From Kordiimonas sp. SCSIO 12603 (GTDB lineage Bacteria > Pseudomonadota > Alphaproteobacteria > Sphingomonadales > Kordiimonadaceae): a DNA stretch of 64,000 bases. Position numbers and translations under genes: made by a program. Positions 12,882 through 25,210 of the stretch are shown here, piece after piece (positions within the stretch are counted from its first letter, which is position 1; every line of letters starts with the position of its first letter). The notes under the pieces were generated by a model. The model did no database searches. It was given only the letters and a program-made list of their open reading frames with translations, and had not been told where the DNA came from. The stretch covers positions 673,501 through 737,500 of the forward strand of contig NZ_CP073748.1 in assembly GCF_024398035.1 (NCBI RefSeq). The letters are read 5' to 3'.

Positions 12882-12899
12882 GCGTGATCTTCATCACGC
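12882..12899. promoter_or_regulatory. Crp-type operator upstream of the TIR operon
   Basis: GCGTGAT-CTTC-ATCACGC is a perfect 18-base inverted repeat whose core is GTGA-N6-TCAC, the two half-sites bound by Crp. It is centred about 94 bases upstream of the GTG start of the TIR gene and about 98 bases from the start of the divergent membrane-protein gene. The Crp-family protein encoded at 17338-18000 has the recognition helix TRETVSR, with the same Arg-Glu-Arg residues that contact GTGA in E. coli Crp. That match makes it a good candidate binding site. Confidence 0.6.
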
Positions 12900-12961
12900 T
12901 GCATTGAATTTCCGCTTGCCTCACGGGTTTTAGCGTGCCGATATAGTTGTATATGAAAGCT

Positions 12962-12980
12962 GCACTGTGAAGGAGAGAGC
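12962..12980 (+). promoter_or_regulatory. Ribosome binding site of the TIR gene, complementary to the predicted RNA
   Basis: AGGAGAGAG (12971-12979) lies four bases before the GTG at 12984 and decides that start. The 19 bases 12962-12980 can pair with the minus-strand RNA segment antisense to 12362-12380: 16 Watson-Crick pairs, two G-U pairs and one mismatch, with nine contiguous pairs over the Shine-Dalgarno. Pairing would block ribosome access. Confidence 0.45.
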
Positions 12981-12983
12981 ATA

Positions 12984-15086
12984 GTGAGCAACTATAAGTA
13001 TAAAGCGTTTATCAGCTATAGCCACAAAGACGCTGCTCTTGGGGAAGAGATCCACAAAGAGTTGGAAAAATATAAAGTACCCAAAAGATTGGTGGGTAAA
13101 GCCACAGCTGTTGGTGTTGTACCGTTGAAATTGGGGCAGTTTTTTCGAGACCGTGAAGAATTACCTGTTGCCGAAGATCTTACGACTGAGGTTGCGAAGG
13201 CTTTAGGCCAATCTGAATTCATGATTGTTTTGTGTTCACCTTCTGCGGCAGCTTCTCGCTGGGTTAACAAAGAAATTATCGAATTTAAAAAGTTACGCGG
13301 TGAGAAATATGTTCTGCCTTTGATTCTTTCAGGTGAGCCGTGGGCATCTGATACTGATGATAAAGAGGCGGAATGTTTTCCACCAGCCCTTCGGTACCGT
13401 ATCTCTCCAGCTGGTACGCTTTCGCATATTCGTACAGAACCAATAGCCGCTGATATTCGCGAGCAATCAGATGGCCGAAAGAGAGGTATTCAGAAGCTGA
13501 TCGCAGGCCTACTTGGGGTTGGGCTTGATCAGTTGGTGGAGCGAGAACTGCAAAGAAAGCAGCGCCGCGTGATGGCTATCACGAGTGCCAGCGTTCTGGG
13601 CATGATAGTGATGGGCGCATTAACTTATCAAGCAACTACAGCACGAAATGCTGCCGAGCGGCACCGTGCGGAAGCGGAAGATTTAATCGAATTTATGCTC
13701 ACCGACCTGCGCAAAAAACTGGAACCCGTTGGCAGGCTTGATGTGCTTGATGCCGTGGGCACTAAAGCGGTTGATTATTATAATGCGCAGGATCTGGATG
13801 ATGTATCAGACGATGCAATGGGCCGACGTTCGCGCGCTTTTCACATGCTGGGTGAAATACAGAATTCCAGAGGTAATTTGCAACAAGCGGATGTGATGTT
13901 CAAACGGGCCAATGCCGCGACAGAGGGGCTTTTTGAGCGTGATCCATCTGATCCACAGCGTATTTACGAACATTCGCAAAGTATATATTGGGTGGGGCAT
14001 CAAGCCTGGCAATTGGGCGATTATACTGCTGCTGAGATAGCGTGGCGTAAGTATAAAGAGTTATCCCAGCAACTGGTATCTATTGATCCGAGCAATATCG
14101 ATTGGCAGTTTGAACTGGCCTATGCCCACAGTAATGTCGGGACCTTGCAGTTAATAAATTTGCATCAACCTAAAAAAGCGCATGAGAGCTTTACGAGATC
14201 CTTGAAAGTGTTTGAAGGCCTTAGGCACGCGCTGAATGATGACATAGATCTGGAATATGAAATTGCTGATACGCATGGCTGGATTGCGGATTCATTATTG
14301 CAGTTTGGTCATGCGAAAGATGTCCGTACCGCACGAGAGTTACAAAAAGGTTTGCTAGAAAAACTTGAGCAAAAAGACCCTCTTAATAAAACAGTACAAA
14401 CGATGAAGGTTATACCTTTTCGTGCTTTGGGGAACTTGTCATATTCAGAAGGAAATTATCAAGAAGCTATCAGGCATTTTACGCAAGCAGTTGAATTAGC
14501 AACACAGCTAAGTATTAGCGATTTAGAAAATCGTAGATGGAGATCGTCCTTAGGTATTGCTTATATCGAGTTATCTTCTGTGTTGCTGACTACGGGTGAT
14601 CTTTTGGGGGCTCAAGAAGTTTTCTCCGAAGCAGAAGAAATCGCTGCAGCGCTGCTTGGCCAAGATAAGGCTAACTTAGAGGAAACCATATACTTGGAAT
14701 TCAAATTAGCCTTTTTGGAGTATGAGCTACGAAAAGTGCAAAAAGAGTTGTCATTTGATGCCGTACAAGAAGCTCAGGCAATATTAGATAAGGTACTTCT
14801 TCAAGCTGAAAAATTAAAGAGTTCAACAGCTGGGCGCAGTGTTTTAACAACTGGGTACGTGAACGTTATTCTTGCCTTACATGACGCAGATCAATTGGAT
14901 GACGCCCAGATTAAGATGAAACATATTTGGGGTGGACAATCAGTTTTGGGGGAACTGACAGATTATGCAGGTGCAAAGCCTTCATACCTGAAACAGTTAC
15001 TCACATTGGCAAAGTTAAATGGGAATTTGGATCTTCAAAACGATGTGGAGCAGTCCCTTTTAAACAGAGGTTACGCCATAGAATAA
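12984..15086 (+). CDS. TIR-domain protein with membrane segment and TPR repeats
   Basis: A 700-residue three-part protein. The TIR domain is at residues 5-115 (KAFISYSHKDAALGEEIHKE). The SxWxxxE signature SRWVNKE contains Glu97, the position of the catalytic glutamate in NAD-cleaving TIRs. A basic juxtamembrane stretch (ELQRKQRRVM) leads to one membrane helix near 196-216. A coiled region (AEAEDLIEFMLTDLRKKLEP) and several TPR-like helical repeats fill 240-700, probably outside the cytoplasm. The GTG start has a strong AGGAGAGAG. It is first in an operon with an unknown protein and a nucleotide cyclase. Hand counts show G+C falling from 28/60 at 13681-13740 to 21/60 at 14701-14760, so the C-terminal half may have a different history. 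Whether it signals, senses or defends is unknown. Confidence 0.85.
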   Translation: MSNYKYKAFISYSHKDAALGEEIHKELEKYKVPKRLVGKATAVGVVPLKLGQFFRDREELPVAEDLTTEVAKALGQSEFMIVLCSPSAAASRWVNKEIIEFKKLRGEKYVLPLILSGEPWASDTDDKEAECFPPALRYRISPAGTLSHIRTEPIAADIREQSDGRKRGIQKLIAGLLGVGLDQLVERELQRKQRRVMAITSASVLGMIVMGALTYQATTARNAAERHRAEAEDLIEFMLTDLRKKLEPVGRLDVLDAVGTKAVDYYNAQDLDDVSDDAMGRRSRAFHMLGEIQNSRGNLQQADVMFKRANAATEGLFERDPSDPQRIYEHSQSIYWVGHQAWQLGDYTAAEIAWRKYKELSQQLVSIDPSNIDWQFELAYAHSNVGTLQLINLHQPKKAHESFTRSLKVFEGLRHALNDDIDLEYEIADTHGWIADSLLQFGHAKDVRTARELQKGLLEKLEQKDPLNKTVQTMKVIPFRALGNLSYSEGNYQEAIRHFTQAVELATQLSISDLENRRWRSSLGIAYIELSSVLLTTGDLLGAQEVFSEAEEIAAALLGQDKANLEETIYLEFKLAFLEYELRKVQKELSFDAVQEAQAILDKVLLQAEKLKSSTAGRSVLTTGYVNVILALHDADQLDDAQIKMKHIWGGQSVLGELTDYAGAKPSYLKQLLTLAKLNGNLDLQNDVEQSLLNRGYAIE

Positions 15087-15127
15087 TTCTATGAAGAAAC
15101 TTTAATCGCACTATGGAGAGGAACATT

Positions 15128-15649
15128 ATGTACGAAAAATTACCAGAGCTTGATGCTCAATTAGAAAGCCGGAAGAAGTATACGACTATTTTGAAGATTG
15201 GTATGACACCAGAAGGTCAATACTGTGTGGGACGTAGTAAACCGTTTGATGGCTTTTTGAATAAAAAAGAAATTTTGGAAGCAATTCCTGGCGTCGAGTT
15301 TGATCCAGTTACTTGTGAAGATCCATTTTATCTGGAAGTCAATGGTCGCCAGAGGCTTGTTTTCTCGTTGGCTCCTGAAAGCTGGTTTTTCCAACCAACG
15401 ATTGCGCCTTTTACTTTGAAAACCCCGGACCCGCTTAATAACTTTGTTAACCAGCAAAAATTGCAAGATGATCCATATGGCTATGGTCGTTCGAAGACAA
15501 TTTTTGTGGATGACGAGAACAAGATGGCTCAGGAAAAACCATACAGTTACAATCTCTTCATCGATGTATGGCAAGACGCAAAAGATATTACGTCTGCGAC
15601 AACACCGGTCATTATTGACCCTCGTGTTCGCAATAATAATGGCGGTTAG
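15128..15649 (+). CDS. Unknown protein encoded between TIR and cyclase genes
   Basis: A 173-residue protein that I cannot place in a family. An ATG at 15113 is in frame, but the ATG at 15128 has GGAGAGG seven bases upstream and is preferred. It has no signal peptide or membrane segment. The sequence is rich in aromatic residues and prolines (APESWFFQPTIAPFTLKTPD, PYSYNLFIDVWQDAKD), suggesting a mainly beta fold. It ends with RVRNNNGG. Spacing is 41 bases from the TIR stop and 12 bases to the cyclase start, so all three are probably co-transcribed. A sampled line (15181-15240) has 24/60 G+C, close to the AT-richer second half of the TIR gene. It may be an adaptor between sensor and cyclase; this is inference only. 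Confidence 0.7.
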   Translation: MYEKLPELDAQLESRKKYTTILKIGMTPEGQYCVGRSKPFDGFLNKKEILEAIPGVEFDPVTCEDPFYLEVNGRQRLVFSLAPESWFFQPTIAPFTLKTPDPLNNFVNQQKLQDDPYGYGRSKTIFVDDENKMAQEKPYSYNLFIDVWQDAKDITSATTPVIIDPRVRNNNGG

Positions 15650-15661
15650 ACGTTAAAAGAT

Positions 15662-17341
15662 ATGTCCCCGACGGAGCAATATAACTCAATCTTAACGCTG
15701 CTTAGAGCTGGTGCTCTTGAGCAGGCGGAGAAAGAGTATTTCCGTCTGGGGCTGGATACAGTTTCAGATAATGAAGATATTCTGGCGCTGGGTGGGCGGC
15801 TTTTAAAAAGCCGGATGGTGGAAAGCCATCAATCTCACAAACGGGAACTGGCGCGGCAGGCTGCTGAAAAATATTATCACGCCTATGAAGCAACGGGTGG
15901 TACATACACTGGTATCAACACCGCCGCAATGCAGATGCTTGCGGGAGATATTGATAATGCCCGTGCGACCGCGGATGAAGTTCTTCATAAAACCAGAGGG
16001 TATTCACCTAAACCGGGGCAGGATGCTTATTATCACATGGCAACCGTGGCTGAGGCCTATTTCATTTTAGGTGATCATGCACGCGCTGAAACTAACTTAA
16101 CGGATGCTATATCTCTTGATCCAGAGAATTATGATGCTCATGCTTCTACTCTGAAACAGTTTGAACTGCTTGCTACGGTAAATAGCGCAGATATTAGTTG
16201 GCTTGATAAATTCAGGCCCCCGAAAACTCTTCATTTTGCAGGGCATATTTTCGGCCTTGATGGCGACGGGAATATTCTTGATGAAGCATCCGTCTATGGG
16301 CTCGGTAAATCTATTCTGGATAAAATTCTCTCTGAAAATATTGGTTATGTTTATGGTGCACTCGCCGCTGGTTCTGATATCCTGATTGCAGAGAAAGCAC
16401 TTGAGGCAAATGCCGAGTTTCATTTGATTTTGCCGTGCCCTGATGAGCTGTTCATTCAAACGTCTGTGATGCCATTTGGCGAGCATTGGGTGTCTCGCTT
16501 TTGGGCTTGTAAAGCAGCAGCTAAAACAGTGCGGTATCTCTCGGGCGATAATCTCAAAACAGATGATATGTTCACAGCGTTTGCCAGCGAAACCGCGATG
16601 GGGTTGGCAGTTCTTAAGGCAGAGCGTTTAGCCACAAAACCGCTGCAATTATTGATTTGGGATCAGAAAAATCCAACAGCAAAAGCGGGTACCGCGAGAG
16701 ATGCAAAAGTGTGGGAGCAAGCGGGGCGTGACCAGATTATCATCCCCTATCCAAGAGATACAAGGAAGGCAACAGGAGCCGGAGACAATACCGAAGAGCT
16801 AACAGCCAGCCGCGACTTGAAGGCGATGGTTTTTGCCGATGTGAGGGGGTTTGGTGCGCTTACAGATAGTCAGGTTCCTGTGTTTATTGATAAAATCCTG
16901 CGGCCCTTAGCCATCTGTGTAAACACCCAAGGCCGGCAACTTGAACACCTGAATACTTGGGGGGATGGTTTGTTTCTTGTGCTGGATAGTGTGGAAGCTG
17001 CGGCCAAGGTCGCAAGTGACTTGCAGGAAACATTCAGGGCTATTGATCTTGCTGAAATTGGATTGCCGGAATTTCTCGCGCTTCGTATCGGAGGTCATTA
17101 TGGCCCAGTACACGAAATGCGGGATCCTTTTACGAACCGGATTGGGGTATTCGGAACAGAGGTAGCTTTTGCGGCTCGTATTGAGCCCGTAACTGTGCCT
17201 GGTTCAATATATGTGAGTGAGCCATTTGCCTGTGCTCTGGCACTAAGCGCAGAAGAAAAATACCGCTGTGAAACCGTTGGTAAGGTTGAAGCCCGGAAAG
17301 GCCAGCAAGCGCTGAAACTTTTTAGTTTGCGTGTGCGCTAA
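15662..17341 (+). CDS. TPR / Rossmann-like / class III nucleotide cyclase fusion
   Basis: A 559-residue cytosolic protein in three parts. Residues 1-170 are helical repeats of the TRAFs-binding/TPR kind (TYTGINTAAMQMLAGDIDNA, YYHMATVAEAYFILGDHARA). Residues 185-360 look like a SLOG-type Rossmann nucleotide-binding module (GALAAGSDILIAEKALEANA, FHLILPCPDELFI). Residues 385-555 are a class III cyclase domain: both metal aspartates are present (Asp393 in FADVRGF, Asp435 in NTWGDGLF) and so is Arg506 of the transition-state pair. However the adenine-selecting Lys position is Asn431, its partner is Gly495, and the transition-state Asn position is Ala502. The substrate may therefore not be ATP, or activity may be altered. 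It is third in the TIR operon and overlaps the convergent Crp gene by four bases. Confidence 0.82.
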   Translation: MSPTEQYNSILTLLRAGALEQAEKEYFRLGLDTVSDNEDILALGGRLLKSRMVESHQSHKRELARQAAEKYYHAYEATGGTYTGINTAAMQMLAGDIDNARATADEVLHKTRGYSPKPGQDAYYHMATVAEAYFILGDHARAETNLTDAISLDPENYDAHASTLKQFELLATVNSADISWLDKFRPPKTLHFAGHIFGLDGDGNILDEASVYGLGKSILDKILSENIGYVYGALAAGSDILIAEKALEANAEFHLILPCPDELFIQTSVMPFGEHWVSRFWACKAAAKTVRYLSGDNLKTDDMFTAFASETAMGLAVLKAERLATKPLQLLIWDQKNPTAKAGTARDAKVWEQAGRDQIIIPYPRDTRKATGAGDNTEELTASRDLKAMVFADVRGFGALTDSQVPVFIDKILRPLAICVNTQGRQLEHLNTWGDGLFLVLDSVEAAAKVASDLQETFRAIDLAEIGLPEFLALRIGGHYGPVHEMRDPFTNRIGVFGTEVAFAARIEPVTVPGSIYVSEPFACALALSAEEKYRCETVGKVEARKGQQALKLFSLRVR

Positions 17342-18000
17342 TTTACCCAAGATGTTTTTCTTTTAAGTGCTGATCTATCAAGAATTATAAGATCGCTCCC
17401 CTTCTTTTCCACAGCACCTTTGCGTACAAGTTCATTCACAGTACGGGAAACTGTTTCCCGAGTACTGTTAATACGTTTAGCAAGTACCGTGTAGGCTGGG
17501 ATATTTTCAACAAGAAGCTGGTTATTTTGCCTTCTTGCAAGGCGTAATAGCTCGGCATGGACCCTGCCTTTGGCTGAAACGGCGGTAAGTTCGTACATGC
17601 GCTGAGTGGTTTTATGTACTCGGTCAGCCAGCATTTTAGAGACAGCAAGGCCGACACTGCCGTGGTTCTCCATTAAATCCAAAAAGCATGCGGCAGAGAA
17701 AGCAGCGAGTTCTACACGAGTTGAGGCTACGATATCAGCAGTTCGACTTTGGGCACTAAGTACAGCCATTTCCCCAAATAATGTACCGCTACCAAACTCA
17801 TCCAGCCATACTTCTTCACCGGCGTTTGAATAAAGTACAGCTTTTACCTTGCCAGTTAAGACAAAGAAAACTGTATTGCCTTCTTCTTCCTGTGAGAAAA
17901 TGGTTTCGCCTGGATTGAAAACCATGCGAGTGGATTTTTGCTCAATATCATTAAGCATGGCGGATGAAGTGCCAAAAAAATTTGCGAGGATATCCCGCAT
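17338..18000 (-). CDS. Crp/Fnr family transcriptional regulator
   Basis: A 220-residue regulator. Residues 25-115 form the cyclic-nucleotide-binding barrel, with the phosphate-binding cassette intact (FGEMAVLSAQSRTADIVAST: Glu77, Arg86, Thr87). A dimerisation helix follows, then a winged helix at 150-210. Its recognition helix TRETVSR matches the E. coli Crp residues that read GTGA. The open frame extends to 18039, but the ATG at 18000 has AGGGGG upstream and is preferred. It is convergent with the cyclase gene (four-base overlap) and lies downstream of slyX on the same strand. A circuit of cyclase product, this receptor and the GTGA-N6-TCAC site at 12882-12899 is a reasonable hypothesis. No Fnr-type cysteine cluster is present. 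Confidence 0.9.
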   Translation of the reverse strand: MRDILANFFGTSSAMLNDIEQKSTRMVFNPGETIFSQEEEGNTVFFVLTGKVKAVLYSNAGEEVWLDEFGSGTLFGEMAVLSAQSRTADIVASTRVELAAFSAACFLDLMENHGSVGLAVSKMLADRVHKTTQRMYELTAVSAKGRVHAELLRLARRQNNQLLVENIPAYTVLAKRINSTRETVSRTVNELVRKGAVEKKGSDLIILDRSALKRKTSWVN

Positions 18001-18076
18001 CTCGTGCCCCCTATGATCGATGCATTTTAGATTGATCAATCCACCATTAAAAGCAAGTAAATAGCGAAATTTGTGC

Positions 18077-18286
18077 TTAATAGTGTGGTGGTGGTGGCTC
18101 GATTTCTGGTTTCCCGCTTGACGATTCCAGATCCAGCAATTGTTCGTGAAGGCGGTGAATAGCGTTCTTCAGGCTATCGATTTCCTTCCACTGTTTGGTT
18201 AGCTCAGTATTCAGCGTATCAATAGTTTCTTGCTGGAAAGCGAATTTGCATTCCAAATCAGTTAGTTTTTCTTCTAGATCAGCCAT
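18077..18286 (-). CDS. slyX: SlyX family protein
   Basis: A 69-residue coiled-coil protein of the SlyX family. The heptad pattern runs through most of it (LEEKLTDLECKFAFQQETID, LNTELTKQWKEIDSLKNAI), and the C-terminus is the proline-rich PEIEPPPPHY typical of the family. The ATG at 18286 (MADLEEKL) is preferred to the GTG at 18298, because AGGTG lies nine bases upstream of the ATG. It sits 76 bases before the Crp-type gene on the same strand. Its molecular role is unknown across bacteria. Confidence 0.88.
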   Translation of the reverse strand: MADLEEKLTDLECKFAFQQETIDTLNTELTKQWKEIDSLKNAIHRLHEQLLDLESSSGKPEIEPPPPHY

Positions 18287-18426
18287 AAGACTATGCACCT
18301 GTTATTGTTTTAACGCCATGATTTAGAAAGTTCGTTTCACATAAGCAACGATTATACGAGTAAAATAGACATTCCTGTATTTTCGTCTGTCAAAATGTTT
18401 AACAAAGTGTTAATTGTTGTAGAGCG

Positions 18427-18461
18427 TGAACGAGAGTTCATGAACCGTACAAGTATTTGTA
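18427..18461. promoter_or_regulatory. Two adjacent inverted repeats upstream of the GGDEF gene
   Basis: TGAAC-GAGA-GTTCA (18427-18440) and TACAA-GTAT-TTGTA (18448-18461) are two perfect five-base-arm repeats with four-base spacers, starting seven bases apart, 50-85 bases before the GGDEF start. The first has the GAAC-N4-GTTC shape of some LexA boxes. They may be operators for the diguanylate cyclase gene or for the divergent slyX-crp pair. Confidence 0.35.
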
Positions 18462-18511
18462 TCGATTTGGGGTTAGCAAGGGAACACTAGATTGATGATC
18501 GCGGAGAGATT

Positions 18512-19537
18512 ATGAGCTTTGGCGATGGGATGAACAAAGCAGGGGATATTGCTAAACAGGCAATTGAACTGATGGACAGCCATAAGGTGCCTCCAGCACC
18601 ACCTAATTTCGCAATTTGGTATAGCTATGTTAGCCAGCGTTATCCGGATTTGAAGATAGCACTTGATCAGATGATCAGGGACGATGCCGACTTTGACGGC
18701 ATGGTCAACCAGTCACTGTATGATACATATCTGGGCTATGAGAAAGAAGGTGCGCTTCTGCAGGAAACCGGCGCTCATATGAAAGAGCAGGCGGATAAAA
18801 TGCTTGAAGTTATTGGTGGTGCTTCTTCAGAAATTGAAGGCGTGCGCGCTTCCATCAAGGATAATCTTAAATCTTTCAGCGAAGATGCGTCCATTACTGG
18901 TATCGAAGCATTTGTACAGAATATGATGCAGGAAACTCGTCGTATTCAGGAAACCAATGCGCAGCTTCAAGCGCGCCTTGAAAAATCCTCGGCTGAAATT
19001 GAAACGCTGCAATCAAATCTGAAACAGGCGGAAAAAGAAAGCTACACAGACGCTCTCACTGGTATCGCAAACCGGAAGAAGTTTGACGCGTTTCTTAAGG
19101 CCGCTTCCGAAATGGCAGAGAAAGACGGCAGCAAGCTCTGTCTCGCCGTTGGGGATATCGATTTCTTCAAGAAGTTTAATGATACCTTTGGTCACCAGGT
19201 GGGTGATCAGGTTTTGAAACTTGTTGCTGGTGCGCTTCATGCCAATGTGAAGGGGAGCGATTTAGCAGCTCGTTATGGTGGTGAAGAGTTTGCGCTTGTC
19301 CTGCCAGATACACAGATTGAAGATGGCTTTAAGCTTGTGGATAACATTCGCGATAAAATCGGTTCTCAGCGTGTTCGCAATAGGCAAGCGGAAAAAGATT
19401 TTGGTAATGTAACGCTGTCGCTCGGAATTGCAGAATTTAAGCCGGGTGAGGCGCTTTCGGATTTCGTGGAACGTGCTGACGCTGCACTCTACAAATCAAA
19501 AGAAGGCGGCCGTAACCGCACAACTATTGCTGAATAA
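18512..19537 (+). CDS. Diguanylate cyclase (GGDEF domain)
   Basis: A 341-residue soluble protein. Residues 1-170 form a helical, partly coiled sensory region of a type common in alphaproteobacteria (VPPAPPNFAIWYSYVSQRYP). Residues 175-340 are the GGDEF domain, with the active-site loop YGGEEF at 255-260 and metal-binding VGDIDFFKKF at 213-222, so cyclic-di-GMP synthesis is expected. The inhibitory RxxD site five residues before the loop is KGSD (247-250), with Lys in place of Arg. Product inhibition may be weakened. The gene stands alone, divergent from slyX, and two short inverted repeats lie in its upstream region. Confidence 0.92.
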   Translation: MSFGDGMNKAGDIAKQAIELMDSHKVPPAPPNFAIWYSYVSQRYPDLKIALDQMIRDDADFDGMVNQSLYDTYLGYEKEGALLQETGAHMKEQADKMLEVIGGASSEIEGVRASIKDNLKSFSEDASITGIEAFVQNMMQETRRIQETNAQLQARLEKSSAEIETLQSNLKQAEKESYTDALTGIANRKKFDAFLKAASEMAEKDGSKLCLAVGDIDFFKKFNDTFGHQVGDQVLKLVAGALHANVKGSDLAARYGGEEFALVLPDTQIEDGFKLVDNIRDKIGSQRVRNRQAEKDFGNVTLSLGIAEFKPGEALSDFVERADAALYKSKEGGRNRTTIAE

Positions 19538-19556: not shown

Positions 19557-20024
19557 TTAGTGGAAGTTTTCTGCTGACAGGTCTTTGCCCTGATTATCAA
19601 AATCAACTACCAGCTTCCACTCATCAGCCTGTTTTTCAAAGATCAATAAAACCCTGCCGTAAAAGCTCTGTGCTTTACCGTCTCCTTGCGGGATATTCAC
19701 ACGATATTTTCCTGCGATATGCGCAAGCTTTTCCCCTACAGTTACCAATTCCTCTGAAAATTCAACGGTTGCACCGCCTCCAGCCTTGAACTGTGCGCCA
19801 TAGTTAGCTCGGATTTGCTCTATAGATGTTACCAGATCACTGCCGTTATTAGCATAATAGATACGGTCACCATATAAAGCCATAAGAGCACCAATATCTT
19901 TGGTGTTATAGGCATCGAGCCAGGCTTGCATCTTTCCGCGGATAATATCTTTATCATCCGCCTGCACTGTAGGTGTCAGCATAAGGAATAATCCCAGAAG
20001 GCCAGCGGTTAGGAATTTGCTCAT
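19557..20024 (-). CDS. Exported SnoaL-like/NTF2-fold protein
   Basis: A 155-residue protein with a signal peptide (SKFLTAGLLGLFLMLTPTVQ, cleaved near AD). One NTF2-like cone domain follows (DIIRGKMQAWLDAYNTKDIG, ALMALYGDRIYYANNGSDLV, GRVLLIFEKQADEWKLVVD), matching the SgcJ/EcaC or SnoaL-like group. Such domains bind small molecules or act as isomerases or hydrolases; no catalytic set can be named. It lies five bases after allantoicase on the same strand and so may be the last gene of the purine catabolic operon, although a role there is unproven. Confidence 0.8.
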   Translation of the reverse strand: MSKFLTAGLLGLFLMLTPTVQADDKDIIRGKMQAWLDAYNTKDIGALMALYGDRIYYANNGSDLVTSIEQIRANYGAQFKAGGGATVEFSEELVTVGEKLAHIAGKYRVNIPQGDGKAQSFYGRVLLIFEKQADEWKLVVDFDNQGKDLSAENFH

Positions 20025-20029
20025 TAATC

Positions 20030-21022
20030 TTATTCTTTATCTAAAGTTCCAAACAAACGGAGACGGCTGATACCGCCATCTGGATAGATATTAATTCGAA
20101 CATGGCTGATAGAGCCAAGCTTATTCAGCTCGCTCTCGAAAGTGTGTTCAGCATCAGCGGTAAGTTTCTGGCGCGGCATCAGTTCTTCCCAGAACTGGCT
20201 TTGAACCGGTAGGCTATCATCTGTGCCGCCCGCTACGCGTGCTGCCTGCAGACTGATGCTTTCAGGGAAGTTCCCTTTGAAATAGGCTGTATCTACAAGA
20301 ATGCGGTTAATTTCTCCTGCATGACCAAGGGCAACAATCGCCCAATCATTCCCTGGCTCCCGGCGGCGTCGTGTTTCCCAACCATCGCCCATATTAATGC
20401 CTTTACCAGGCTGCATGATGTTTGAAAGCACGCCAAAATGCTCGTTATTGGCAATGATTGGGCGGCCACCATTTTCCATGGCGAGCAGGTCCATTTCCTT
20501 GCCGTAATCGCTTTCCTGCCAAACCTTGTAGAATTCGCCATACACACGCAGACGAGCAACGCCGCCATCAGGGTAGATATTCAGGCGTAAGTGCGTGAAG
20601 GGTGTATCATTCTCTACAGCAACCAGATGGTGGCTGTCGCCGTTTAGATTCATTGACGGTACAATCTCAATCCATTCAGCTTCTTCTCCGGGTGTATCTG
20701 CATTGCTGAAACAGGCTTCAACTGAAGCAGCCGGGGGGAAGTTGCCAGTGAAATGGCTGGTATCAATATCCAGGCCTTTGATAATGCCGGCTTGTCCCAG
20801 TTTCAGGATGCAGTGATCAAAACCTTGTCCGCGTTTGCGGCGGCTTTCCCATCCGTCCATCCATTTGCCGTTATCATCATATTTGCCGGGGATGAAAACC
20901 GCTTCTTCGTCTTTGATCAGGCGGCTTTTATCAGCAAAAAAATCATCAGTGGCGAATATTACTTCTGCACCCAAGCGCGGGGACGCCATATTGATAAAGC
21001 GCGTAAAGCTGTGGTCTGTCAT
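20030..21022 (-). CDS. alc: Allantoicase
   Basis: Hydrolyses allantoate to ureidoglycolate and urea. The 330-residue protein shows the duplicated allantoicase fold. Repeat one has GAEVIFATDDFFADKSRLI and WMDGWESRRKRGQGFDHCIL. Repeat two has NEHFGVLSNIMQPGKGINM and GDGWETRRRREPGNDWAIV. AAGGAC lies seven bases before the ATG. It is 11 bases downstream of uraD in a minus-strand operon of uraD and puuE, and it supplies the substrate for the ureidoglycolate lyase encoded at 31205-31702. Confidence 0.95.
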   Translation of the reverse strand: MTDHSFTRFINMASPRLGAEVIFATDDFFADKSRLIKDEEAVFIPGKYDDNGKWMDGWESRRKRGQGFDHCILKLGQAGIIKGLDIDTSHFTGNFPPAASVEACFSNADTPGEEAEWIEIVPSMNLNGDSHHLVAVENDTPFTHLRLNIYPDGGVARLRVYGEFYKVWQESDYGKEMDLLAMENGGRPIIANNEHFGVLSNIMQPGKGINMGDGWETRRRREPGNDWAIVALGHAGEINRILVDTAYFKGNFPESISLQAARVAGGTDDSLPVQSQFWEELMPRQKLTADAEHTFESELNKLGSISHVRINIYPDGGISRLRLFGTLDKE

Positions 21023-21033
21023 GTTGGTGTCCT

Positions 21034-21552
21034 TTATTCCGCTAGGTCTGAAAGCCTGAAGAAGGCAATGCGGTCAATTTGTTCAAGTGCTGTGGCGAAC
21101 TCTGTTTCCCTATCGTTATTGATACGGGCTCTGAAGTGGGCCAGAATTTCTGTACGGTCCATGCCTTTCACGGCCACAATAAACGGGAATCCGAATTTGG
21201 TTTTATAAACAGCATTCAAGGATTGGAATTCTTCAAATTCTTCTGGTGTACAGCGATCAAGCCCTGCGCCAGCCTGCTCAGATTTCGATTCTTCGGTCAA
21301 TTCGCCGCTAATTGCCAGCTTGCCTGCCAGATCCGGGTGGGCACAGATAAGCCGCATTTTGGCTTCATCACTACCATCTGCGACAGCCTTCTTCATGGCG
21401 TTATGAAGGCCTTGAAGTGTGTCGAGGTTTCCAGAGTCTTTCGCTTCCCACGCACCTTTGGCAATCCATGGTGAATGTTCGTAAATCACACCATATGTCA
21501 CCATAAATTCGGTTTCAGAAATCTCGCTTGGCCTTTGTTTCATGAAGGGCAT
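21034..21552 (-). CDS. uraD: OHCU decarboxylase
   Basis: Converts 2-oxo-4-hydroxy-4-carboxy-5-ureidoimidazoline to S-allantoin, the third step of urate breakdown. The 172-residue length and motifs fit: YEHSPWIAKGAWE with the catalytic His near residue 26, ICAHPDLAGKLAISGELTEE in the middle, and KFGFPFIVAVKG toward the end. Its ATG overlaps the stop of the allantoinase gene by one base (TAATG), so translation is coupled. It acts directly on the product of the HIU hydrolase encoded at 23343-23696. Confidence 0.94.
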   Translation of the reverse strand: MPFMKQRPSEISETEFMVTYGVIYEHSPWIAKGAWEAKDSGNLDTLQGLHNAMKKAVADGSDEAKMRLICAHPDLAGKLAISGELTEESKSEQAGAGLDRCTPEEFEEFQSLNAVYKTKFGFPFIVAVKGMDRTEILAHFRARINNDRETEFATALEQIDRIAFFRLSDLAE

Positions 21553-22469
21553 TATTTCTCTCCCTTATAAGGGTGTTCAGCATGCCAGTGTTTGGCAATG
21601 TCAATGCGGCGGCAGAACCATGCGTCTTTATGGGAGCGCGCATATTCAAAGAAACGTTCGAGCGCTTTGATGCGCCCCGGTCTGCCAATAAGGCGGCAGT
21701 GAAGCCCAACCGACATCATCTTGGGACTGGTTTCGCCTTCTTCATACAGTGTATCGAAGGCATCTTTCAGATAGTTAAAGAACTGGTCACCAGCGTTAAA
21801 ACCCTGAACCGCTGCGAAACGCATGTCATTTACATCAAGCGTATAGGGCACAACCAGTTGCGGCCTACCATCCACCGTTTTCCAGAAGGGAAGGTCATCA
21901 CTATAATCATCCGCGTCATAAAGGAAACTACCTTCCTCTGCTACCAGTTTGCCCGTGTTGGGGCTTGTACGGCCCGTATACCAGCCAAGTGGCCGCTCGC
22001 CAGTGATATCCTGAATGATCTTGATGGCGTCCTGCATATGCTGGCGTTCGGTTTCAATATCTACATTCTGGTAGTTGATCCAGCGTAGGCCGTGGCTACA
22101 AATTTCATGTCCTGCATCCATGCATGCCTTGGCTACTTCTGGGTGTCGCTGAAGTGCCATAGCAACTGCGAAAACCGTTACCGGAATATCGTATTTTTCA
22201 AAGAGCCTCAGCAGCCGCCAAACACCCGCGCGGCTACCGTATTCATAGATAGATTCCATACTCATGTGGCGATCTTCCACATGAGGCGCACTTACAATCT
22301 CTGACAGAAAAGTTTCGGCGGCTGGGTCACCGTGCAACACACAGTTTTCACCGCCTTCCTCATAATTCATCACCACCTGGACAGCTATTTTGGCGCCGCC
22401 CGGCCAGTTGGCGTGAGGGGGCTTGGGGCCATAGCCGATCATATCCCGTGGGTATGCTTGCTCTGTCAT
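21552..22469 (-). CDS. puuE: Allantoinase, PuuE type
   Basis: A metal-dependent hydrolase that opens allantoin to allantoate. At 305 residues it belongs to the polysaccharide-deacetylase (NodB-like) allantoinases, not to the amidohydrolase AllB type. Recognisable parts are YPRDMIGYGPKPPHANWPGG at the N-terminus, EYGSRAGVWRLLRLFEKYDI, GHEICSHGLRWINYQNVDIE with metal-binding histidine, and GWYTGRTSPNTGKLV. AAGGA lies upstream of the ATG. It is the first structural gene after the GntR regulator gene, nine bases away, on the same strand. Confidence 0.94.
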   Translation of the reverse strand: MTEQAYPRDMIGYGPKPPHANWPGGAKIAVQVVMNYEEGGENCVLHGDPAAETFLSEIVSAPHVEDRHMSMESIYEYGSRAGVWRLLRLFEKYDIPVTVFAVAMALQRHPEVAKACMDAGHEICSHGLRWINYQNVDIETERQHMQDAIKIIQDITGERPLGWYTGRTSPNTGKLVAEEGSFLYDADDYSDDLPFWKTVDGRPQLVVPYTLDVNDMRFAAVQGFNAGDQFFNYLKDAFDTLYEEGETSPKMMSVGLHCRLIGRPGRIKALERFFEYARSHKDAWFCRRIDIAKHWHAEHPYKGEK

Positions 22470-22478
22470 TATTAATCC

Positions 22479-23165
22479 TTAACTGGCGGCAGCAAAGATC
22501 GCGTGCAGGTCTTGTCCGGATTCTTCGGTTTCGAAAGAAAGCTGGCTTTCAATGCCGCGCAAATGTTCTGCCATAATGGTTTGTGCTGTTTCTGCGTCTT
22601 GGTGTTCAAGCGCATCAACAAGGCGTTCATGTTCTCCACCCTTACAGCTTGATGGCGCGCCCGCTGTGCCGTACTGCGATATAATCAAAGAGCTTTGAAA
22701 CACCAGCTGCTGAAGGAAAGTGCACATAGGTTCATTGCGCGCAATATGCGCAAGTTTGATATGAAACTCTCCTGAAAGCCTGATCCATGCGGCGAGATCT
22801 GCTTCGTTGAGTGCGGTTTGTTCTTCCTCAAGGTGCGCACGTAGACGTGCGATATCCTGAGGTTGCACGCGCTCGGTGGCACGGCGCAAAAGCGCTTTTT
22901 CCGTTGCGCGCCTTGCTTCGAAAACCTGATGCGCTTCTTCAACTGTTGGCGCGGCAATTGTCGCACCTTTGTTGCGTTCAAGCCTGATGATGTTGTCTTT
23001 ACTAAGCAGGAGGAAAACCCTTCTGATTGTCGTACGGCTTACCCCAAATATGCCGCACAGTGATTCTTCAGTGAGTTTTGTGCCAGGCGCAATACGCTGC
23101 TCAAGGATACTATCCCTGATACGCTGGCACACGTCTTCTTCCGTTAGTGCTGTGGTGTTTGCCAT
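22479..23165 (-). CDS. GntR family regulator with FCD domain
   Basis: A 228-residue regulator. The winged helix is at about residues 8-75 (VCQRIRDSILEQRIAPGTKL, LCGIFGVSRTTIRRVFLLLS), and an all-helical FCD ligand domain follows to the end. It heads the minus-strand puuE-uraD-alc operon and is divergent from uraH-xdhABC, with 177 bases between the starts. That places it as the local regulator of urate and allantoin breakdown. The shared intergenic region contains TTGTCAACAA, which fits the t-GT-n-AC-a pattern of FadR-type GntR operators. The inducing purine intermediate is unknown. Confidence 0.9.
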   Translation of the reverse strand: MANTTALTEEDVCQRIRDSILEQRIAPGTKLTEESLCGIFGVSRTTIRRVFLLLSKDNIIRLERNKGATIAAPTVEEAHQVFEARRATEKALLRRATERVQPQDIARLRAHLEEEQTALNEADLAAWIRLSGEFHIKLAHIARNEPMCTFLQQLVFQSSLIISQYGTAGAPSSCKGGEHERLVDALEHQDAETAQTIMAEHLRGIESQLSFETEESGQDLHAIFAAAS

Positions 23166-23231
23166 GACCTATCCCCTGTCGTTTGGCATGTAGCACATTG
23201 AATACAGCCTAGATTTTTTGCCGCTGTCACC

Positions 23232-23247
23232 AAATTGTCAACAATTT
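23232..23247. promoter_or_regulatory. Predicted GntR/FCD operator between puuE and xdh operons
   Basis: AAATTGT-CA-ACAATTT is a perfect inverted repeat with seven-base arms. Its core TTGTCAACAA matches the FadR-subfamily consensus t-n-GT-n0-3-AC-n-a. It lies in the 177-base divergent region between the regulator gene and uraH, about 95 bases from the uraH start and 67 from the regulator start. One bound dimer could therefore control both operons. Confidence 0.6.
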
Positions 23248-23342
23248 AATGGCATTAATGTTGATAATATACTTTACAATTCGTCAATCATCAGTACGGT
23301 ATCAGAATTGAGGAAGACCATACCCCGTAAAGAGAGGATAAG

Positions 23343-23696
23343 ATGGGACGTTTAACCACCCATGTACTGGACACTGCAAATGGCTGTCCGGGAGAAGGCA
23401 TTAAAATCAAGCTATATGCTTTGAAGGGTGAAGAACGCCGTCTGTTGAAATCCGCTGCCACAAATGATGATGGCCGTGTTGATAGCCCGCTTCTTGATGG
23501 GGATGATTTCAAAACTGGTGAATATCTGCTAGAGTTTGAGGCAGGTAGTTATTTTCGGGCTCGTGGTACAGAGCTGGCGGAGCCAGCCTTTCTAGACGTG
23601 GTGCCTATCCGTTTTGGTATAGCGGATGTGGATGCACATTATCACGTGCCCTTGTTGATTTCCCCATACGGCTACAGCACCTACAGAGGCAGCTAG
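23343..23696 (+). CDS. uraH: 5-hydroxyisourate hydrolase (transthyretin-like)
   Basis: Hydrolyses 5-hydroxyisourate, the first product of urate oxidation. The 117-residue protein begins with [20 protein letters not shown], carrying the conserved His, and ends with the diagnostic [24 protein letters not shown] lies just before the end. It is the first gene of the plus-strand uraH-xdhA-xdhB-xdhC operon and is divergent from the GntR regulator. GAGAGGATAAG precedes the ATG. Confidence 0.95.
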
Positions 23697-23734
23697 CCGG
23701 AGCAACCGCTTTCAGGGAATTAGGAGTATTTTAT

Positions 23735-25210
23735 ATGTCAGGTACTGTTCGGTTTCTGCTGGACGGACGGGTTCATGAAATCCATAGCCCAGACCCAACG
23801 GCCACATTATTGAATTATCTGCGTTACGATATGGCGCGCACCGGTACCAAAGAAGGATGTGCCGAAGGTGATTGCGGCGCTTGTACGGTGGTTGTTGGTG
23901 AACTCAGGGGTGGCCGTGTGGAATATAAAGCGGTGAATGCCTGCATTATCTTCCTGCCCACACTCGACGGTAAAGAACTGCTGACCGTGGAAAGCCTGAA
24001 ATCAAAATCGGGTGGCTTGCATCCTGTTCAGGAAGCACTTGTTGAAACTCATGGTTCGCAGTGCGGTTTCTGTACACCGGGTTTTGTGATGTCGCTTTAC
24101 GCGCTGTACCTCGAAGGCCCTAACCCAACGAAAGACCGTATCGAAGATGCACTTGCGGGTAACCTTTGCCGCTGCACGGGCTATGGCCCTATCATTGATG
24201 CGGCGAACCGCATGTTTGAACTGGGCGCTGATGAACTGCCTGATATGCAGGAGCAAGTAGCGGCCCTTGAAGGTATTAAGCGGGATGATACGCTTTATAT
24301 CTCAGCGAAAAGCAAGCTGACAGGGAATGAAAAACGCTATTTCGCACCCGTGAATGTAGATACGCTTGCAGCTGTTGCAGAACAGAACCCGGATGCTACC
24401 TTCCTTGCGGGCGGTACAGACGTTGGCCTTTGGGTTACCAAAATGCATAAAGAGCTGGCGACAGTGATTTATCTGGGTGATGTGGCTGAACTGAAAGAAA
24501 TTACCGAAACTGCGGATAGTGTTGAGATTGGCGCGGGTGTTACCTACACGGATGCCATGGAACTGCTTGCAGGCCTCTATCCTGATTTTGGCGAATTGAT
24601 CCGCCGTATCGGTTCCACGCAAATCCGCAATAGCGGCACCATTGGTGGTAATATCGCGAACGGTTCCCCGATTGGTGATACACCGCCAGCGCTTATTGCG
24701 CTTGGTGCTAAGCTTGTGCTCCGTAAAGGGCACGAAGAACGCACTATCGATCTTGAAGATTTCTTCATTGATTACGGTAAGCAAGACCGTGCAGCAGGTG
24801 AATTTGTTGCCAAAGTAATTGTGCCGAAACCGGCGGCAGATACGGCATTCCGTTCTTACAAATTATCCAAGCGTTTTGACCAGGATATCTCTGCCGTGTG
24901 CGCAGCATTCTCTATCGCTCTTGAGGGTGAAACTGTGAAAGAAGCGCGCTTCGCATATGGCGGTATGGCAGCAACACCAAAACGCGCTGCAAATGCAGAA
25001 AGCGCATTGGTTGGCAAAGCCTTCACAGAAGAAAATGTGGAAGCAGCTATGGAAGCGATGGCAAATGATTTCAGCCCGCTTACAGATATGCGTGCCTCGA
25101 AGGATTACCGCATGTTATCGGCGCAAAACCTGTTGATGAAAGTATTTGTTGAGCTTACCAGCGATGCGGATACCCGCCTTGCTCTAAGGCAGGAGATGGC
25201 CAATGTCTAA
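23735..25210 (+). CDS. xdhA: Xanthine dehydrogenase, FeS/FAD subunit
   Basis: The small subunit that passes electrons from the molybdenum centre to NAD. The 491 residues hold a plant-type 2Fe-2S domain (CAEGDCGAC, residues 42-50), a second 2Fe-2S domain (CGFCTPGF at 110-117 and CRCTG at 145-149), a linker, and the FAD domain (FLAGGTDVGLW, STQIRNSGTIGGNIANGSPI). AGGAG lies nine bases before the ATG. It overlaps xdhB by eight bases. With the large subunit and XdhC it forms the hypoxanthine/xanthine to urate step. Confidence 0.96.
   Translation: MSGTVRFLLDGRVHEIHSPDPTATLLNYLRYDMARTGTKEGCAEGDCGACTVVVGELRGGRVEYKAVNACIIFLPTLDGKELLTVESLKSKSGGLHPVQEALVETHGSQCGFCTPGFVMSLYALYLEGPNPTKDRIEDALAGNLCRCTGYGPIIDAANRMFELGADELPDMQEQVAALEGIKRDDTLYISAKSKLTGNEKRYFAPVNVDTLAAVAEQNPDATFLAGGTDVGLWVTKMHKELATVIYLGDVAELKEITETADSVEIGAGVTYTDAMELLAGLYPDFGELIRRIGSTQIRNSGTIGGNIANGSPIGDTPPALIALGAKLVLRKGHEERTIDLEDFFIDYGKQDRAAGEFVAKVIVPKPAADTAFRSYKLSKRFDQDISAVCAAFSIALEGETVKEARFAYGGMAATPKRAANAESALVGKAFTEENVEAAMEAMANDFSPLTDMRASKDYRMLSAQNLLMKVFVELTSDADTRLALRQEMANV

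Follow-up and report, generated by a model that had tools for sequence, protein, structure and literature searches.

The 64,000-nucleotide stretch analyzed here (hereafter the window) comes from the 3.85-Mb, single-contig genome of Kordiimonas sp. SCSIO 12603 (assembly GCF_024398035.1, contig NZ_CP073748.1, positions 673,501 to 737,500). It contains four adjoining genes that encode a TIR-transmembrane-TPR protein (gene 1), a small, hypervariable, beta-rich protein (gene 2), a TPR-S/Rossmann/class III nucleotide cyclase protein (gene 3), and a convergent regulator of the Crp family (gene 4). Genes 1 and 2 are separated by 41 bases and genes 2 and 3 by 12 bases, while genes 3 and 4 share 4 bases tail to tail. 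A first-pass annotation of this DNA had proposed the same coordinates, gaps, and overlap, all of which proved exact when the open reading frames (ORFs) were checked. Gene 2 has an alternative open start at 15113, 15 bases upstream of 15128, and a longer TTG start of gene 4 at 18039 is also open. From comparison with related loci, we consider it fairly probable that the four genes form a nucleotide-gated positive-feedback loop built around a variable recognition/effector module.

Gene 1 matches the Pfam families TIR_2 (expectation value, E, 5.6e-12) and TPR. Gene 3 matches TPR-S (PF20308; E 3.3e-10, 40.9 bits against a cut-off of 27.6), MAP3K_TRAF_bd (PF13281; E 3e-7), and Guanylate_cyc (PF00211; E 5.2e-11), and a confident structure model places an alpha/beta, Rossmann-like region at residues 188–362. 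The label SLOG-like, which this region carried at first, finds no Pfam SLOG match, and the 50 Foldseek matches listed for gene 3 are all cyclases. Gene 4 matches cNMP_binding (E 2.6e-22) and HTH_Crp_2 (E 6.3e-12). The product of gene 2, initially described as unknown, is not wholly so, since it matches PF20301 ("pNTSase1"; E 1.7e-5), although the score barely exceeds the cut-off (25.3 against 25 bits).

Table 1. Features of the four-gene locus, in window coordinates.
Feature	Positions	Strand	Basis or remark
Upstream Crp-type palindrome, CGTGATCTTCATCACG	12883-12898		About 100 bases before the TIR gene
Gene 1, TIR-transmembrane-TPR protein, 700 residues	12984-15086	+	ORF, Pfam
TIR domain of gene 1	13008-13337	+	
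Intragenic Crp-type operator, CGTGATGGCTATCACG	13568-13583		Encodes (R)VMAIT at the start of the transmembrane helix
Transmembrane helix of gene 1	Starts at about 13569		C-terminal part of the protein is TPR
-10-like element, TGATAGTG	13603-13610	+	T13606 and A13607 lie 30.5 and 31.5 bases from the palindrome center
Segment exchanged relative to Kordiimonas laminariae	13843-15170	+	TPR part of gene 1 and 5' end of gene 2
Gene 2, small hypervariable beta-rich protein, 173 residues	15128-15649	+	ORF, Pfam pNTSase1
Gene 3, TPR-S/Rossmann/class III cyclase, 559 residues	15662-17341	+	ORF, Pfam
TPR-S	15680-15931	+	
Rossmann/SLOG-like region	16223-16747	+	
Class III nucleotide cyclase domain	16823-17329	+	
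Gene 4, Crp-family regulator, 221 residues from ATG	17338-18003	-	ORF, Pfam

The operon is real and is conserved, together with the mostly convergent Crp gene, in alphaproteobacterial relatives. We compared 59 genomes, of which 58 are relatives and one is that of the window. Fourteen carry the cyclase gene, and in 12 of these a close Crp (E<=1e-40) adjoins it (G014 has only a fragment of the cyclase gene); none of the other genomes has a close Crp, and the small gene is detectable in 4. Scanning genome contigs with the TPR-S/Rossmann part gave 538 pattern matches, from which the best 80 of 205 relatives were taken as loci L080–L159. In the 74 of these with room on both sides, which are best matches and not a random sample, the TIR gene lies directly upstream of the cyclase gene in 51, a Crp gene lies within 800 bases in 63 (58 convergent, 5 co-directional), and both are found in 47. 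Where complete, the neighborhoods of 10 further stretches and of the first relatives consist of the TIR-TPR, small, cyclase, and Crp genes; their small gene is mostly unrecognizable by BLAST and the flanks differ outside close relatives. The nearest locus found, in Kordiimonas laminariae, is 97% identical over the TPR-S/Rossmann part. Co-occurrence had been set beforehand as the test by which the circuit could be refuted, and the outcome supports linkage, as adjacency is common and Crp is tied to the cyclase gene in both samples. Using the small protein alone, a search of genome contigs returned 42 pattern matches, none of which was a relative; a plasmid search with the small protein and a phage search with the cyclase gave no match.

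In an even, class-wide sample of 289 genomes, 11 encode the core protein (E<=1e-40); two of these are the genome of the window and G044. From the 9 new genomes, 8 regions (L162–L169; G117 was left out) served as outgroup and negative control. None of the 8 has the TIR-TPR/convergent-Crp arrangement or the internal operator described below, and the module is therefore a subset of a wider cyclase family. In L166–L168, a Crp-like gene lies directly upstream of the TPR-S/cyclase gene on the same strand; this arrangement, with no TIR-TPR partner, is perhaps the ancestral form. Other TIR-type ORFs were seen by eye near L162 and L169.

The first-pass annotation had placed a Crp operator in the promoter of the operon. 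A palindrome is indeed present there, but the main conserved operator is a second copy, missed at the time, that lies 685 bases away inside gene 1. In class II CRP promoters, the operator is centered at about -41.5 and the -10 element lies about 30 bases from its center. The intragenic operator and the spacing of its -10-like element fit this geometry, and transcription is predicted to start near position 13617; resemblance of the element to TATAAT beyond the TA is weak. GTGAN6TCAC occurs inside the TIR gene, +513 to +615 from its start, in 47/56 loci, and the codons of the site, (R)V[MT]x[IV]T, open the membrane helix across TIR genes. L080, a near copy of the window, was dropped from this count and from the codon tests given below. 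Among 49 TIR genes directly upstream of a cyclase gene with Crp beside it, 47 contain YGTGAYNNNNRTCACR, and the two misses (L086 and L120) are cut by contig ends. The internal site is found in 4 of the 19 other TIR genes of the 80 loci (the second TIR gene of L084, L085 at a contig end, L143, and L153); of the 15 that lack it, two are partial. Outside the 80 loci, the site is present in the window and in G008. The second TIR-TPR gene of L084 (L084:13521-16034) lies near the operon and has its own internal operator and TA, which suggests several effectors under one Crp.

Codon choice indicates that this segment is constrained as DNA. Fifty-three genes encode V[MT]x[IVL]T at this place; in 51 the Val codon is GTG, in 51 the Ile/Val/Leu codon carries TC, and in 51 the Thr codon is ACR. 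We aligned the codons of 69 TIR genes, applying no motif or site filter, which gave 542 wobble positions. The most constrained of all is that of the xTA codon, with A in 50/68 against 8.8 expected (z 15.1, a value that overstates significance because related rows are treated as independent). The GTG wobble (G in 64/67 against 25.3 expected) and the xTC wobble (C in 58/67 against 26.3 expected) are also among the top three. An earlier alignment of 46 site-bearing genes had been filtered for the palindrome, so that 46/46 at the two palindrome codons was built in; its xTA codon ends in A in 42/46, and the same three wobble positions lead in the unfiltered repeat. Since codon choice is fixed (51/53) and the wobble bases are the most constrained ones, protein constraint fails to explain the site.

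The palindrome upstream of the operon is less informative. GTGAN6TCAC occurs 63 times in the genome, compared with 64 for a reversed control pattern, so the upstream copy alone is not significant, and we rejected it as proof of a loop. Between -320 and +30 of the TIR start, the pattern is found in 13/56 loci, with odds 7.5-fold over the rest of the loci. Reading the sequence, TATAGT at 12942–12947 is a candidate -10 that would place the palindrome near -63, as in a class I-like promoter.

In seven Robiginitomaculaceae-type loci (L099, L102, L104, L109, L113, L118, and L125), the palindrome is intergenic; downstream of it come a ribosome site and then the start codon (ATG) of the small gene. 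Six of these loci (all but L102, which has none) have TA at 28.5 or 29.5, a spacing one or two bases shorter than that in the TIR gene. Such a promoter-like element speaks for activation, with the small gene as a target. Crp bound inside the TIR gene could instead act as a brake, stalling elongation or forming a loop with the upstream site, and so keep TIR off. Two palindromes 685 bases apart would allow such a loop or roadblock, and a potentially toxic TIR effector would have to be tightly controlled. The -10-like TA at +30.5/+31.5, however, which holds the most constrained wobble, would be superfluous in a roadblock; moreover, 43/56 loci have no exact upstream site, and a like element is placed as an ordinary promoter would be before the small gene in these seven loci, six of them with TA. 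We regard the brake as unlikely and infer that Crp activates. In L123 and L126, sites are found upstream of the cyclase gene, 3/4 with TA at 30.5.

The seven Robiginitomaculaceae-type loci also contain an opposite-strand pair, a large protein gene and the small gene, between the TIR and TPR-S genes, with the element between the pair; in L102 the TIR gene is cut by the contig start. Pfam assigns the large protein to Trypsin_2 in all of the three loci tested (L099, L104, and L109), and it is a possible protease effector in the same circuit. We also considered and rejected an internal translation start that would yield a TPR-only protein. After the promoter, 31/52 genes have no start with a ribosome site, and 9 have one in frame. 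Such a start is therefore not general, and it is probably the small and cyclase genes that are expressed from the internal transcript.

The palindrome might alternatively serve a global Crp/Fnr regulator, the convergent Crp and the cyclase being mere neighbors. The operator is a generic CRP consensus, three other HTH_Crp_2 matches over the cut-off in the genome could use it, and L143 and L153 carry the site with no Crp found nearby. Against this, the site tracks the layout with a linked Crp (47/49 compared with 4/19 of other TIR genes), and it is absent from the 8 cyclase loci of the class-wide sample, which do not carry the module. TIR genes without a full-length downstream Crp in L090, L103 (partial), L110, L158, and L159 have no internal site either; these five were picked for lacking it, and the proper comparison is that of 47/49, in which L120 is counted, with 4/19. 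The receptor pocket and the cyclase are also kept or lost together, as described below. A global regulator is thus very unlikely to be the explanation, and we return to a linked Crp acting on an internal promoter.

The metal-binding residues Asp393 and Asp435 of the cyclase are invariant among 28 sequences and Arg506 is nearly so. The best fold match of the cyclase domain, among the 50 Foldseek matches listed, is mycobacterial Rv1900c (PDB 1ybt). In Rv1900c the cyclase is fused to a hydrolase; in the window it is fused to TPR-S. Rv1900c is not known to be linked to a TIR gene. Gene 3 is the only PF00211 (class III) match in the genome, and no class I cyclase (PF01295) was found, these two classes being the ones searched for. 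With positions assigned from the class III motif, the window enzyme carries Asn where purine specificity is set and Ala instead of the transition-state Asn, while the Arg is kept. Rv1900c, which also lacks the transition-state Asn, is purported to make both cyclic AMP (cAMP) and cyclic GMP (PMC4886424), and atypical class III enzymes can thus be active. Cyclase activity is therefore plausible, and we expect the enzyme to be active.

The Crp of the window has a complete nucleotide-binding cassette (GE...RTA), Thr-Thr at CRP positions 127/128, and the recognition helix residues R180, E181, and R185. These DNA-reading residues match the GTGA/TCAC operator and are kept in 66/66 Crp proteins, an alignment from which L150 and G044 were left out. 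Its cassette-Arg column is misaligned, and another alignment was used for that residue. In 19 loci, the window included, an intact cyclase accompanies a full-length Crp, and 19/19 of these receptors keep the cassette Gly, Glu, and Arg and have Thr-Thr where E. coli CRP has Thr127-Ser128. The cyclase motifs are lost in 49/68 loci with both proteins, and there 0/49 Crp proteins keep both Glu and Arg at the aligned positions. Thr127 is kept in 13/47 pocket-lost rows and Glu72 in 6/47. L122 and L152 were counted as pocket-lost because their sequences and alignment have no cassette Arg despite a loose regular-expression match, and in six lost rows (G044, L146, L093, L108, L118, and L125) an Arg lies one column past the cassette Arg. 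Pfam recognizes Guanylate_cyc in 10/10 complete proteins tested (L120 just under the cut-off) and in 0/12 decayed ones. In L103, L110, L121, and L141, Crp is replaced by single-domain receptors of 125–144 residues that have no helix-turn-helix domain and are encoded close to the cyclase gene or beside it; the cassette is intact in 4/4 by reading of the sequences (the L121 cyclase is cut by a contig end).

The comparison thus shows joint retention and loss of cyclase and pocket. The closed cyclase-Crp loop of the first-pass annotation gains from this coupling, but its nucleotide step looks lost in 49/68 loci. In those loci, Crp must respond to a different input, perhaps physical contact with the protein derived from the cyclase. 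The two clades have decayed in different ways (a shortened cassette in one and substituted residues in the other), which favors two separate events. A tree-based independence test contained one independent pair only, with which significance is not possible. As for the ligand, Ser or Thr at this base-contacting place of the receptor goes with adenine (PMC11224242). The window has Thr there, and our guess is therefore cAMP.

The TPR part of gene 1 and the small gene are hypervariable. Between the window and K. laminariae, DNA on both sides of the segment 13843–15170 is 93.5–93.8% identical, and within it no blastn match is found (E<=1e-10). Identity of the gene 1 protein is 94–100% over residues 1–250 and 20–58% over residues 301–700; the cyclase protein is 98% and Crp 97% identical, and the internal promoter was not exchanged. 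The TPR half and the start of the small gene are thus swapped between sister species. In 57 locus pairs from 32 complete loci, mean identity is 37% for the small protein, 44% for the TPR part, 55% for the TIR domain and Crp, and 59% for the TPR-S/Rossmann part, the last being lifted by choosing pairs with at least 50% identity in it; the pairs include the mis-started TIR ORF of L150. This comparison supports hypervariability of the small protein and TPR part. The TIR domain itself keeps an S..WV..E motif, which a regular expression found in 47/52 TIR proteins. Of the five misses, three have the close variant SQWVAREI, one is N-truncated, and one is a mis-started ORF.

The small protein ends in the signature FNhhh...Q....PhIIDPxIxN, and FNhhh..Q is a common motif ahead of the tail. 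In 43/54 loci, an ORF with the Asp-Pro (DP) tail lies between the TIR and cyclase genes. The structure model is good (predicted local distance difference test 84.2, predicted template modeling score 0.82). It gave no significant fold match, including none at E<=0.001 in a viral fold library, and a profile search of PDB sequences returned two matches (best E 0.38). A relationship to PixA/AidA was rejected, in that the top PDB fold match, 4pib, reached E 0.14 and a template modeling score of 0.27, and hhalign gave a probability of 0.05 against only two PixA sequences. Pfam describes PF20301 as a predicted novel nucleotide synthetase, which raises the alternative that the small protein is the enzyme that makes the signal; besides the name, 11/35 members match the family at E<=0.01. 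Asp-Pro is, however, the only invariant feature among 35 aligned members, and it was built in by their selection with a DP-tail regular expression; moreover, many pairs share about 20–25% identity where TPR-S/Rossmann is more than 50% identical. An enzyme role is very improbable; we infer instead that the small protein functions in recognition and uses its conserved tail for docking.

Several loci carry variants of the small gene. Two tandem small genes lie between the TIR and cyclase genes in L106 (L106:7447-8955, with DP tails) and L128 (L128:7240-8826, by eye), and in L083 and L084 the ORF at this place is unlike the small gene. The small proteins of L089 and L093 (by regular expression) and of L098 (by eye) begin like lipoproteins, which hints at an exported version of the recognition module.

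These features can be assembled into a circuit that is most likely an immune or conflict system. The TIR-transmembrane-TPR protein and the fast-evolving small protein would constitute its recognition and effector side. The TPR-S and Rossmann domains would sense the stimulus, perhaps as a derivative of nicotinamide adenine dinucleotide (NAD) made by TIR, upon which the cyclase would make a cyclic mononucleotide, probably cAMP. The adjacent Crp would bind the nucleotide and activate the class II promoter in the transmembrane-coding part of the TIR gene. This promoter would raise expression of the small protein and the cyclase, which closes a positive feedback, and the upstream site may also switch on the whole operon. 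We give an even chance to a more specific formulation. It holds that the helix-coding segment doubles as a class II Crp promoter whose DNA dictates (R)V[MT]x[IV]T...xTA and that the cyclase-Crp pair drives feed-forward amplification of the hypervariable module. It also holds that the family preserves stages (nucleotide-gated, single-domain-receptor, and cyclase and pocket decayed with the operator and the DNA-reading residues kept) that imply a switch from a second messenger to another input.

Depletion of NAD by TIR, triggered through TPR, might be the whole defense, with the cyclase branch a tuning side-loop dispensable for protection. The nucleotide step is lost in most loci (49/68), many of which still have the TIR gene, the small gene, and the internal site, and several loci have gained a trypsin-type protease gene, so that the effector side is modular. 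The TPR-S/Rossmann protein and Crp nonetheless outlast the cyclase, which makes the regulatory arm indispensable in evolutionary terms, and we find this alternative rather doubtful. Somewhat more credible, though we lean away from it, is a physiological module outside defense, for example in envelope or surface sensing, in which TIR makes a signal and does not kill. An N-terminal hydrophobic stretch is present in 3/37 small proteins (by our own cut-off), and charge is higher before the transmembrane helix than after it in 42/50, which would place the TPR part outside the membrane; the defense role, phage resistance included, is a prediction. Replacement of the TPR part between sister species is typical of conflict systems, as are the patchy cyclase gene (14/59 genomes) and the added effectors.

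A number of observations weigh against the proposed circuit. Our main doubts concern the sign of regulation and the few independent losses. In a tree of the TPR-S/Rossmann part that includes an active outgroup, the joint loss falls on about two branches, each trait requiring two changes (starred branches force one change only; L085 and L121, at contig ends, were scored as unknown). The coupling therefore weighs as one or two events. The DNA element mostly outlives the nucleotide step and so does not depend on the nucleotide everywhere. In G044, which has the gene order and Crp, two sites lie elsewhere near the operon and none in the TIR gene. To these are added the unusual residues of the cyclase, the 11/54 loci with no DP-tail ORF by regular expression, and the absence of any PADLOC model matching gene 2 or gene 3 at E<=1. 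The inflated wobble statistics, L143 and L153, and the three other HTH_Crp_2 proteins count on the same side.

Burroughs and Aravind reportedly described in 2020 the TPR-S/MAP3K-like bacterial conflict systems, related to the ASK signalosome, from which the Pfam names TPR-S and pNTSase1 presumably stem. The window shares with them TPR-S (PF20308), similarity to MAP3K_TRAF_bd, and the association of TIR with nucleotide signaling, and parts of the circuit belong to this repertoire. We claim novelty for the circuit features, the component domains being already named; in a literature search whose reach did not extend to the likeliest paper (Burroughs and Aravind 2020), we recognized none describing an intragenic Crp promoter, joint cyclase/Crp decay, or segment exchange. 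The operator GTGA-N6-TCAC, a -10 about 30 bases from its center, and R180/E181/R185 are those of enteric CRP class II promoters; unlike them, the window element lies inside membrane-helix coding sequence, with codon choice fixed by the DNA site.

Pycsar likewise combines a cyclase, a cyclic-mononucleotide receptor, and TIR in one locus, with the receptor domain fused to the effector (PycTIR; PMC11224242), whereas here the receptor is a separate transcription factor. The PADLOC PycTIR model matches the nucleotide-binding part of the window Crp (E 1.3e-15). The TIR protein itself has no cNMP_binding match, and the cyclase matches none of the PADLOC families at E<=1, PycC included. The circuit works somewhat like Pycsar and is no member of it. 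With Thoeris, the window shares a TIR domain that matches Pfam ThsB_TIR (31.9 against a cut-off of 21.2 bits) and a Rossmann domain that may read NAD-derived signals. Matches to ThsB models are weak (PADLOC ThsB E 0.0074; NCBIfam ThcB4 17.6 against 220 bits), and no Sir2 or ThsA match was found in genes 1–4.

Beyond Crp, positions 18052–19537 of the window contain a small coiled-coil ORF (SlyX-like by eye) and a GGDEF diguanylate cyclase gene (Pfam), an order also seen after Crp in G008, G009, and G016. The GGDEF neighbor possibly links the circuit to cyclic di-GMP. Positions 19557–25210 hold, by eye, a purine/urate catabolism-like cluster (xanthine dehydrogenase, transthyretin-like, and allantoicase types) with a GntR-type regulator.

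In the usual picture of nucleotide-based bacterial immunity, a messenger acts on an effector protein. If the proposed circuit is true, the messenger would act through a dedicated transcription factor on a promoter inside the effector gene, which would give switch-like amplification. The codon-level signature makes the predicted feedback loop testable at the start near 13617. For the small hypervariable protein, the analysis calls the Pfam label "nucleotide synthetase" into question. The natural series of loci in which cyclase and pocket were lost provides a means of asking how a second-messenger step is dismantled while the circuit around it survives.

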